Shown here one piece after another: positions 30,188 to 34,606 of a stretch of DNA of 34,606 bases. A program made the translations under genes and the position numbers. The stretch lies in contig JABSRH010000006.1 of NCBI GenBank assembly GCA_013215175.1, positions 1-34,606 on the forward strand, in the 5' to 3' direction. Within the stretch, counting starts at the first letter, position 1. Each line of letters starts with the position of its first letter. Source of the DNA: Parvularculaceae bacterium. Lineage in GTDB: Bacteria; Pseudomonadota; Alphaproteobacteria; Caulobacterales; Parvularculaceae. The notes under the pieces are model-generated. The model was not told the origin of the DNA. It saw only the letters and a list, made by a program, of their open reading frames with translations, and ran no database searches.

Positions 30188-33100
30188 CTAAGCCGTGGAG
30201 GCGAGGCCCGCCACACCCCGGATCATTTGGAGTGCATTCTTGGCTCCCTCACCCACGCGAACATCGGCTGGCAAAGCGACAACAACCTCGATGTCCGACT
30301 CTGGGAGAGGCAAAATGAGGCGCAAACCGGCGTCTTGATCCGACTGTGCGCAGGCGCGCAGGCTGGCCCTGATCTCCGCTAAGGCATCCGCTTGGCCGAC
30401 CGTCACGTCGACGGATGCCGGTCCAGAAGACCTACTCTGAGCATCGCCTGCCTCCAAGCGCCGAACGGCCTCCAGCGTGAGGCGCGTGCTGCCAGAACTA
30501 TCATCGACGTTCACCGACACGATCAGAGGCTGACCAGGTACGAAAAGATCCTGATATTGTTGAAGTGTTTCACTAAATGCAGTGACCTCGTATTCACCAC
30601 TCTCATCCGACAGGGTAATCCAAGCGAAGGGCTTGCCACTTTTCGAGCGGCGGTTCGTCACGTCACGCACGACCCCCGCAAACAGAACATTGCGTATACC
30701 GATCTCTTCTTGGTTCAAGACTGAAGAGGACATAACAATGCCCTTCTCGTCCAAGACATCCCGGTAGGCCGACAGGGGGTGGCCTGACAGATAGAACCCA
30801 ATGGCCTGACGCTCCTGGTCAAAGGCCTCTGCGGTCGGCCAGGGCGTCACGGACGGAAGCACGGGCCGAGCCACTTCGCTCGTTGTTGCACCGAACAAAC
30901 CGCCTTGGTCAGACGACCGCTCCTCGGCAAGACTTCCCGAGTAGCGCACGAGGAAGTCAGCCGACGACAGAACTTCTGCCCGATTGTCATGCACAGCATC
31001 GAAGGCACCAGCGCGAGCCAATTGTTCAATGCCGCGCTTACCCACCTGGCGACAGTCCACACGTTCAGCAAAATCAAGAAGATCTTTGTAAGGACCACCA
31101 TCACGCCGCGTGGCCTCAATGAGGCGCATGGCCTCAAACCCCACGTTCTTGACCGCGCCTAACGCGTAGAAAATTTGTGGGCCTTTTGCGATGAAATCAG
31201 CACCGCTTTGGTTGATGCAAGGCGGATGCACAACGACGGAGCTACGCTTGGCTTCGGCGCTGAACACTGCGAGTTTATCCGTATTCGCCAGATCGAGAGA
31301 CATCGACGCGGCCAAAAACGCTGCTGGGTGGTGCGCCTTGAGAAACGCCGTCTGATAGCTGATCCAAGCATAGGCAGCGGCATGGGACTTGTTGAAGCCA
31401 TAGCCCGCGAACTTCGCCACAAGTTCGAAAATACCTTCGGCCTTGGCAGCCGACACATTGTTGTCCTTAGCGCCATCCACGAACCGGATCTTCTGCCGGT
31501 CCATTTCCTCCTTCTTCTTCTTGCCCATGGCACGACGAAGAAGGTCGGCCTCGCCCAGCGAATAACCTGACAAGATCTGGGCGATTTGCATCACTTGTTC
31601 TTGGTAGATGATGACGCCGAACGTCTCCTTCAGGACATCCTCCAACAGAGGATGAAGGTAGTCGGGCTCTTCATCACCCGCCTTACGCGCGTTGTATGTT
31701 GGAATGTTGTCCATCGGCCCCGGGCGGTAGAGCGAGACCAGCGCAATGATGTCCTCCAACGAATCAGGGCGCATGCCCTTCAGCGCAGCCCGCATCCCTG
31801 CACTTTCAAGCTGGAAGACACCGGTCGCCTCACCCCGCGTCAGCATCGCGAAGGTGTCCTCATCACCCGTCGGTATACGGTCGATATCGACGTCAATGTC
31901 TTGCTCTGCCAAATTGTCGAGGGCTCGCCGAATGACCGTCAGCGTCTTCAGCCCCAGAAAGTCGAACTTCACCAAGCCCGCTGGTTCAACCCATTTCATG
32001 TTGAACTGCGTGGCTGGCATATCCGCACGCGGATCAAGGTAAAGCGGGACGATCTCTTGAAGGGGCCGATCACCAATGACGACGCCAGCCGCGTGTGTGG
32101 AAGCGTGGCGGTAGAGGCCCTCTAGCTTCAACGCGGTTTCGATCAGCACCCCAACTTGAGAGTCGTTCCGCTTCTCATCTTCAAACCGCGGCTCACCTTT
32201 GACGGCCTCGTCCAGGGTCACAGGGTTTGCCGGGTTGTTGGGCACCATCTTGCAGAGCCGGTCGACCTGCCCGAACGGCATTTGCAGCACACGGCCAACA
32301 TCGCGGAGCACTGCGCGCGCCTGCAACTTACCAAATGTGATGATCTGCGCCACTCGGTCTTGGCCATAGCGCTCTTGCACGTAGCGGATCACCTCATCGC
32401 GACGGTCCTGGCAGAAGTCGATATCGAAGTCCGGCATCGACACCCGCTCGGGGTTGAGGAAGCGCTCGAAAAGAAGACCAAAGCGAAGCGGGTCGAGGTC
32501 AGTGATGGTGAGGGCGTAGGCGACCAGACTCCCCGCACCAGAACCCCGCCCTGGCCCTACCGGAATGTTCTGCGCCTTCGCCCACTGGATAAAGTCAGCG
32601 ACGATGAGGAAGTAGCCCGGGAAGCCCATCCCTTGGATCACCGATAATTCGTGCTCCAAGCGCTTCTCGTAGGCTTCCCGCGGAGCCGCTAATTCAATGG
32701 CGTTCAGCCGAGCCTCCAGCCCCTCTCGCGCCTTGTCAGCCAACACTTGGCTTTCAGCTTCAAGGTCACCCGCGAACGAGGGCAACATGGGGTCAGCAAG
32801 CAACGGGCGATAGGCACAACGCTGAGCCACCTCAACCGTGTTTTCGACAGCCTCAGGCAGGTCACTGAACACCGCTTGCATATCCGCCGCGGACTTGAAC
32901 CAAAAATCCTCTGGCACCCGGCGGCGATCATCTTGGCTTATGTAGCTGCCCTCAGCGATACAAAGCAGCGCCTCATGAGCACGGTAGTCATCCGCACCAG
33001 GAAAGTAGACGTTGTTGGTAGCCACGAGCGGCAGGGCGTGCTCGTAAGCAAGGTCGACAAGTGTCGGTTCGTGAGAAAACCTGCCCTGGTCGTCGGTGCG

Positions 33101-33646
33101 CGCATCAATGGGTGAACGCTGTAACTCGACGTATAGGCGGCCTGAATATGCGTCGCGCAGGCTCAGCAATAAGGTTTCAGCAGCTTCGTCACGACCGTAC
33201 CGAAGCTCGCTATCGACCGGGCCCTCTAACCCGCCGGATAAACAGAGAAGACCATCCGTGTCCTGACACACATCATGGAATGGGACACAGGGCTCGCCAT
33301 CGCGAGCAGGTCGCAAGAAACTCTGCGACCCCAAAGCCATGAGACGGCTATAGCCGACCTCGTTCTGGGCAAGCAGCACCAACTTCGTCAGTGGCGGTCG
33401 TTTTCCCGAGCGGTCCGCCTCGCCGCCCATGCAAACGGCGATCTCGATGCCCGCGATCGACTGGATACCAGCCCCAGCCATGGTCTCCGAAGCCTCCAAC
33501 GCTCCGAAGAGGTTGTTGCTGTCCGTGACTGCGATGGCAGGCATGTTCTCGCGAAGGCAGAGATCCTTCAGCTTCCCAACGGGAATGGCACCCTCAGCGA
33601 GCGAATAGGAAGAATGAACGTGGAGATGAACAAAGGACGCGGTCAT
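30188..33646 (-). CDS. dnaE: DNA polymerase III alpha subunit (DnaE1)
   Basis: PHP [88 protein letters not shown]; C-terminal OB fold. Confidence 0.98.
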   Translation of the reverse strand: [1152 protein letters not shown]

Positions 33647-33706
33647 GGGTGCACCCTAGTCGATTCAAGGCGGGCGTAGCCCACCTGGTTGTCCACAGAG
33701 GACGGC

Positions 33707-33784
33707 TCAGCCGACGACGGCAACCACCGTGGTGAGAACGCTGAGAAGAATAGCGAAACCTGCGATATCTTTGGCGAAAGTCAT
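33707..33784 (-). CDS. 25-aa hydrophobic single-TM microprotein, candidate SOS-induced SidA-like division inhibitor
   Basis: ATG ACT TTC GCC AAA GAT ATC GCA GGT TTC GCT ATT CTT CTC AGC GTT CTC ACC ACG GTG GTT GCC GTC GTC GGC TGA = MTFAKDIAGFAILLSVLTTVVAVVG; purine-rich SD (GAGGGA) 7-8 nt upstream; LexA-type box 16 nt upstream. Below the ORF-track length cut-off. Confidence 0.6.
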   Translation of the reverse strand: MTFAKDIAGFAILLSVLTTVVAVVG

Positions 33785-33800
33785 GTTTTAGTCCCTCTTT

Positions 33801-33815
33801 GTTCTTTTCTTGTTC
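33801..33815 (-). promoter_or_regulatory. putative LexA operator (alphaproteobacterial SOS box GTTC-N7-GTTC)
   Basis: Exact GTTC-TTTTCTT-GTTC, 16-30 nt upstream of the microprotein ATG; overlaps a possible GCTATGG -10 element on the minus strand. Confidence 0.65.
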
Positions 33816-33970
33816 CATAGCGGAACGAAGCATGCAAGAGGGCAATGTGCACAAAATGTTCTCCTCACCGTCAGCAGCCGCCGGCCAGCCTTGTTTCCTA
33901 ATTGTTCTCGGATGCGGAACGTTCTCATCGACGGCGAGGCGAGCACGTCACGTGTCGCTTGGGTGCCGAC

Positions 33971-33989
33971 TCCGCTATAAACTGGCCCA
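33971..33989 (+). promoter_or_regulatory. putative -10 element of uvrD, suggesting a leaderless transcript
   Basis: CCGCTATAAAC resembling the Caulobacter-type GCTANAWC -10; TATAAA ends about 10 nt before the uvrD ATG. Confidence 0.35.
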
Positions 33990-34606
33990 TGCCTTCTTTG
34001 TCTGAGCGCGCCCGAAGCGCGGCCGCCCCCTCACCTGCTAGCTATCTTGACGGGCTGAACGACCGACAGCGCGAGGCCGTGCTAACCACAGAGGGGCCTG
34101 TGCTGATGCTTGCTGGTGCTGGCACCGGCAAGACCAAGGCGCTGACCACGCGCATTGCTCATTTGCTCTCCGCCGGTCACGCCCGCCCCTGGGAGGTCCT
34201 CGCCGTGACCTTCACCAACAAGGCCGCGCGCGAGATGAAAGAGCGCGTCACCAGCTTGGTCGGCCCGGCGGCAGAGGGCCTTCGCTGGATGGGGACGTTC
34301 CACTCCGTCGCTGCGCAGATCCTGCGCCGTCACGCCGAGGTGGTCGGGCTGAAGTCCAGCTTCACGATCATCGACACCGACGATCAGATCCGGCTGTGCA
34401 AGCAAGTGATCGCGGCCGCCGGTCTTGACGAGAAGCGTTGGACCGGTCGCGGCATGGCTGCGGTTATCGATGGTTGGAAAAACCAAGGCCTGACGCCGGG
34501 AGACTTGAAAGCGCACGACGGCGACGCGTTTGGCGATGGCAAGGCGGTCACTCTTTATAGGGACTACCAGTCGCGGCTGATCGATCTCAACGCCGCTGAC
34601 TTTGGC
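33989..34606 (+). CDS. uvrD: UvrD/PcrA-type DNA helicase II, 3' truncated by window end
   Basis: Open frame of 206 codons without stop: YLDGLNDRQREAVLTTEGPVLMLAGAGTGKTKALTTRIAHLL...VLAVTFTNKAAREMKERV...WMGTFHSVAAQILRRHAEVVGLKSSFTIIDTDDQ. Not in ORF track because no stop. Confidence 0.95.
   Translation, partial: MPSLSERARSAAAPSPASYLDGLNDRQREAVLTTEGPVLMLAGAGTGKTKALTTRIAHLLSAGHARPWEVLAVTFTNKAAREMKERVTSLVGPAAEGLRWMGTFHSVAAQILRRHAEVVGLKSSFTIIDTDDQIRLCKQVIAAAGLDEKRWTGRGMAAVIDGWKNQGLTPGDLKAHDGDAFGDGKAVTLYRDYQSRLIDLNAADFG

Follow-up and report, generated by a model that had tools for sequence, protein, structure and literature searches.

Lineages differ in their SOS division inhibitors, which as a rule have come to light one by one, through genetics. 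One of them, SidA of Caulobacter, an inner-membrane protein of 29 aa that is induced in the SOS response, inhibits division through FtsW (PMC4211646), and deletion of sidA suppresses filamentation in a lexA mutant (PMC12700426). Does a short open reading frame (ORF) that lies between a LexA-type box and dnaE encode such an inhibitor in the window, by which we mean the whole 34,606-nt stretch of DNA analysed here? We judge it likely that this microORF is the gene for a SidA-like SOS-induced inner-membrane division inhibitor acting on FtsW, and a positional ortholog of Caulobacter sidA. A first-pass annotation had picked out the ORF, its GAGGGA Shine-Dalgarno motif and an exact GTTC-N7-GTTC, all of which, coordinates included, were borne out on re-reading the sequence; as it had also supposed, the ORF is too short for gene callers and was missed by standard annotation. 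The locus is made up of the following parts.

33707..33784, minus strand: microORF for the putative SidA-like peptide MTFAKDIAGFAILLSVLTTVVAVVG, 25 codons, ATG to TGA, stop included (minus-strand reading around it: ...CGTTCCGCTATGGAACAAGAAAAGAACAAAGAGGGACTAAAACATGACTTTCGCC...GTCGTCGGCTGA)
33767..33769, minus strand: codon 6 of the microORF (Asp6, GAT), the acidic residue just before the predicted transmembrane helix
33792..33797, minus strand: Shine-Dalgarno-like GAGGGA, 7 nt before the microORF ATG
33801..33815, minus strand: predicted LexA box GAACAAGAAAAGAAC, exact GAACN7GAAC (GTTCN7GTTC on the plus strand)
33847..33861, minus strand: degenerate second LexA-like site GAACATTTTGTGCAC, 1 mismatch, upstream of the main box
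30188..33646, minus strand: dnaE, DNA polymerase III alpha subunit (NF004226, 1404 bits)
33989..34606, plus strand: divergent uvrD-like helicase gene (5' part), identified from the frame MPSLSERARSAAAPSPASYLDGLNDRQREAV...LAGAGTGKT, context only

The LexA-type box lies 16 nt upstream of the microORF ATG. A second box upstream of the first is also present in several relatives, and double boxes recur in two other families of the order, f3 (Caulobacteraceae) and f5. A sigma-70 promoter scan at the locus found none. Elsewhere in the genome of the window, lexA has an exact box near its start and recA a one-mismatch box 98 nt before its profile match, so GTTCN7GTTC is very probably the LexA operator here. 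The significance of the box alone was rejected as evidence, being no better than chance in two controls: at least one exact box turned up in 78 of 100 shuffles of the window, and exact box sites number 75 genome-wide against 123 for the reversed control pattern. As a separate observation, the centre of L005 (G000:C2:22873-22887) carries an exact LexA-type box GAACAAAACAAGAAC before a long frame (…MRHRIVSNQQMSVESLVPSDIKSRYDVYEWRN…), a candidate SOS gene.

The combination of box and ORF behaves differently from the box alone. Upstream regions of dnaE were sampled from the family of the window (f1, the Parvularcula group), from other families of the order and from class-level genomes, and the strict criteria were an exact box, an ATG start 5-60 nt after the box, a length of 18-60 aa and a hydrophobic core. 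Such an ORF is carried by 114 of the 127 dnaE-upstream regions with an exact box, compared with 2.7 expected from shuffling the DNA between box and dnaE; the sampled genomes are related and hence not independent trials, and the point is the spread over several families. The microORF with its box stands above chance because it is conserved upstream of dnaE across families, and judged by this conservation it is a real gene.

Counted by family, the strict criteria single out 46/52 genomes in f1, 21/28 in f5, 17/31 in f3, 9/27 in f4 and 0/28 in f2, together with 11/55 class-level genomes, and counts overlap slightly in that three 'named' records are the same species as f1 genomes. With relaxed criteria (a box with at most 1 mismatch and a milder hydrophobicity limit, giving single-helix ORFs of 25-47 aa) the numbers become 48/52 in f1, 31/31 in f3, 28/28 in f5 and 10/27 in f4, with f2 still at 0/28. 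In some of the remaining f1 gaps the ORF is in fact there, but starts with GTG or has no box that can be recognised. The first-pass annotation had proposed looking for a conserved hydrophobic ORF upstream of dnaE in relatives, and had named a lack of conservation of the ORF or its start codon as the observation that would speak against it; the ORF is present in f1, f3, f5 and f4, and relatives keep its start, stop, frame and position. In Parvularcula, for example, P. maris has the microORF sequence MNMIKDCAGFATLLVLLAAAVAVVG. Box and microORF also precede dnaE in scattered other Alphaproteobacteria; for class-level genomes without a near box, extending the search to 1.5 kb upstream of dnaE added nothing more, and a direct DNA similarity search with the ORF region gave matches in three sister species only. 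In Falsochrobactrum shanghaiense (L088), a 28-aa boxed peptide MTDLVYDLLSFISVSLFIATFALWVSAI is found about 300-390 nt upstream of dnaE and is a candidate SidA-like gene in Rhizobiales.

Family f2 is the exception: in none of its 28 genomes are the microORF and its box found ahead of dnaE. Profile searches of eight f2 genomes found no boxed copy elsewhere, a profile search for a relocated copy in f2 and f4 returned weak matches only, with no box at the loci inspected, and the reverse-oriented boxes found upstream of dnaE in some f2 genomes are accompanied by no matching microORF. There has apparently been a loss or replacement of the checkpoint peptide in this family. One f2 genome (G113) has, around position 1500 of L375, a small peptide gene MLKLRLRDLLSLNALAGLSAVILCVVLVTDPAVMALLG with a weak match to the family profile and no LexA box.

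Coding constraint was evident at the level of the reading frame. Within the genus of the window, pN/pS is 0.44 in frame and 0.86 and 2.53 in the shifted frames, with 57/18/79 differences at codon positions 1/2/3. In-frame values elsewhere are 0.32 (a second f1 genus), 0.45 (f3) and 0.64 (f5), and shifted-frame values over the four groups range from 0.82 to 2.68; by this measure the microORF frame is under purifying selection in all four. The three closest relatives with the 25-aa form keep start, stop and length. A Shine-Dalgarno-like core precedes 119 of 139 dnaE-upstream microORFs, and the median box-to-ATG distance is 19 nt in f1; relatives have this motif at a comparable spacing. What the family conserves best is an acidic residue before the hydrophobic core (137/138 peptides), usually with a basic or polar partner ahead of it, followed by one hydrophobic helix and almost nothing after the helix. 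The window peptide has a best 15-residue Kyte-Doolittle mean of 2.74 and a core without charge.

Caulobacter provides the link to a known gene. The C. crescentus genome in f3 was recognised by its PopZ, 100% identical to what we take to be the PopZ sequence of that species. Directly upstream of its dnaE, under a LexA box, is an ORF of 29 aa. NCBIfam NF033228, 'cell division inhibitor SidA', matches it with 72.4 bits, the cut-off being 35, and the SidA sequence was identified by this model together with genome position. This confirms the sidA-dnaE adjacency that the first-pass annotation had put forward. Across the order, NF033228 is above cut-off in 19/160 genomes, all of them f3 and only at the place upstream of dnaE. 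Among the named control genomes exactly one, presumably C. vibrioides, exceeds the cut-off; the C. crescentus peptide type recurs in two named Caulobacteraceae records. Published locus numbers agree: dnaE is CC1926 (PMC1839093), sidA is CCNA_02004 (PMC11034885) and recN is both CC1983 (PMC1839093) and CCNA_02062 (PMC12700426), and the recN offset between the two numberings puts CCNA_02004 at or next to dnaE.

How close the window peptide itself is to SidA depends on the route taken. It has no match to NF033228 at E 10, nor has anything in its genome at E 1, and Pfam and NCBIfam returned nothing credible for peptides of the window family. With a profile built from Caulobacteraceae only there is no signal (P 0.38); P is about 0.01 with f5 as the profile and, on a restricted set, about 0.002 when the profile takes in every non-f1 member apart from f4. 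For the family at large, 41/44 f1 peptides exceed, with the non-f1 profile, the 95% mark set by control ORFs, and 25/26 Caulobacteraceae peptides exceed, with the f5-only profile, the 99% mark set by shuffles. Blind genome-wide searches with non-f1 sequences ranked the dnaE-upstream ORF first in G015, G001, G022, G006 and G049 and second in G010 and G005, and missed the microORF in the genome of the window, where the family profile finds one such gene. These comparisons support homology of the whole family via intermediates such as those of f5 (MRRVVQDVSAATAVLGFAWMIAMWGSVLGAA) and Parvibaculum (LKDVAALASIGGFVWVAGTW), and the putative homology of the window peptide to SidA rests on synteny and sister species. 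The first-pass proposal of an SOS checkpoint peptide orthologous to sidA thus holds for the locus and its regulator site, and for the peptide in size class and membrane architecture, but the SidA model is unmatched. We file the ORF as a SidA-like variant, and not as SidA, because it does not match NF033228; on the sequence evidence it is a divergent SidA-like positional ortholog and not a certified SidA.

In the mechanism that we propose, LexA would bind at 33801-33815 and repress the microORF, and DNA damage, acting through RecA, would lead to LexA self-cleavage and free the promoter. The 25-aa single-helix peptide would then enter the inner membrane, with an N-in orientation suggested by the Lys5-Asp6 flank, and contact FtsW of the septal wall-synthesis complex, blocking a late division step. 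The block would last until repair is done and LexA returns. Sequence evidence, namely the predicted operator, supports the repression step, and the composition of the peptide supports membrane insertion. FtsW is suggested as the target only by analogy with SidA, and the genome has two FtsW/RodA-family genes, both below the cut-off of the FtsW-family model. We infer translation, membrane orientation and division arrest for the window peptide, as we do LexA binding and induction.

Some other membrane function would also be compatible with a conserved single-helix peptide under LexA control. The peptide could be a toxin of the TisB/DinQ type, lowering the proton-motive force and bringing about SOS-induced dormancy with no divisome block. 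Regulator, size and single-helix design are the same as in the window peptide, and E. coli has in DinQ a toxic peptide with a single transmembrane segment that is under SOS control (PMC3567139). Yet by synteny and through the intermediates the window peptide is tied to sidA, with FtsW as the SidA target (PMC4211646), the helix core of the window peptide lacks a charged residue, and no Rfam match was seen at 33400-34100 (E 1), hence no known antisense antitoxin family. We find the toxin improbable.

The peptide could instead be incidental, the box making dnaE SOS-inducible and the short ORF coupling its translation to that of dnaE. The dnaE start lies 60 nt past the microORF stop on the same strand, and a scan found no terminator-like site between them, so read-through is plausible and dnaE may be co-induced; RNA structure in the interval is unremarkable (z -1.0). 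In Caulobacter, however, the active product is the peptide (PMC4211646). The amino-acid-level constraint on the microORF also argues against a mere leader, as does the distance from its stop to dnaE, which ranges from 5 to more than 300 nt while box-to-ATG stays short. We hold a leader function to be quite unlikely, and both the toxin and the leader are weaker explanations than the SidA-like division inhibitor.

Still less probable, to the point of being very unlikely, is a reading in which the box controls the divergent uvrD-like gene and has nothing to do with the small ORF. In E. coli, uvrD belongs to the classic SOS genes, and here it starts at 33989, 173 bp away. However, the sister species L128, L131 and L132 carry, besides the microORF box, a separate LexA box (GAACGCCTCGTGAAC or GAACGCTTCGGGAAC) beside the divergent uvrD-like start. 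At about 33950-33970 of the window the matching site has decayed and the box is lost, and SOS control of uvrD may thus have been lost here. With uvrD having had a box of its own, the box at 33801-33815 would belong to the microORF, and the box-ORF pair persists in other families with a different upstream neighbour. Finally, although a box alone is expected in a window of this size, a short hydrophobic intergenic ORF beside a chance LexA-like repeat has a negligible probability and is refuted by the conservation data (114 vs 2.7 expected, constraint at the codon level and the same place in at least four families).

For the SidA-like reading, the scope may be wider than one locus. The SidA family appears, from these searches, much broader than the curated model, and if anything the first-pass annotation understated its finding, which concerns a widespread, fast-evolving family and not a single candidate. 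We lean slightly towards an ancient alphaproteobacterial SOS checkpoint of which SidA is the most visible branch: a LexA-box single-helix peptide of 25-47 aa, with an acid before the helix, encoded ahead of dnaE in the majority of Caulobacterales families as well as in, for example, Parvibaculum, Sneathiella and Falsochrobactrum, fast-evolving and possibly co-transcribed with dnaE. We propose that the curated model is confined to Caulobacteraceae because the family evolves so fast. If this is true, damage would stop division and raise Pol III together. Our search of open papers found none describing the breadth of the family; the original SidA paper (Genes Dev 2011) lay outside that search, and priority is uncertain. 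The fixed order of LexA box, microORF and dnaE is a sequence rule that finds SidA-like candidates where the curated model finds none, and it opens the checkpoint to testing in many Alphaproteobacteria. More than a hundred natural variants come with it, and from them it can be read which residues matter: the acid ahead of the helix is retained and the Trp cluster is not. The arrangement further raises the questions of why a checkpoint gene stays beside dnaE and what replaced the microORF in f2.

Among known systems, SidA of C. crescentus is the nearest. Both genes lie directly upstream of dnaE on the same strand, with a LexA box (predicted in the window) before the start codon, and both peptides consist of a short N-terminal segment ending in an acidic residue and then one hydrophobic helix to the C-terminus. 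The window peptide differs in having 25 aa instead of 29 and in lacking Trp and the FVWM motif, and its locus differs in the divergent uvrD-like gene upstream and the unmatched NF033228. TisB of E. coli is likewise a LexA-controlled single-helix peptide, as is DinQ (PMC3567139). The two target the membrane, however, and each pairs with an antisense RNA; no RNA family of that kind was seen in Rfam at the window locus. DidA of Caulobacter, a small inner-membrane protein, responds to DNA damage and inhibits division (PMC4211646), although it is LexA-independent (SOS-independent), whereas the microORF is under a predicted LexA box. YneA of Bacillus, SosA of Staphylococcus and ChiZ of Mycobacterium share induction by DNA damage, a single membrane helix and an action late in division; FtsW is the binding partner of YneA, and models of low confidence position SidA, SosA and ChiZ at FtsW TM7 (PMC13396833). 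YneA, SosA and ChiZ are longer and come from unrelated loci, YneA and ChiZ contain a LysM domain, and the design that all three have in common with the SidA-like peptide is probably convergent.
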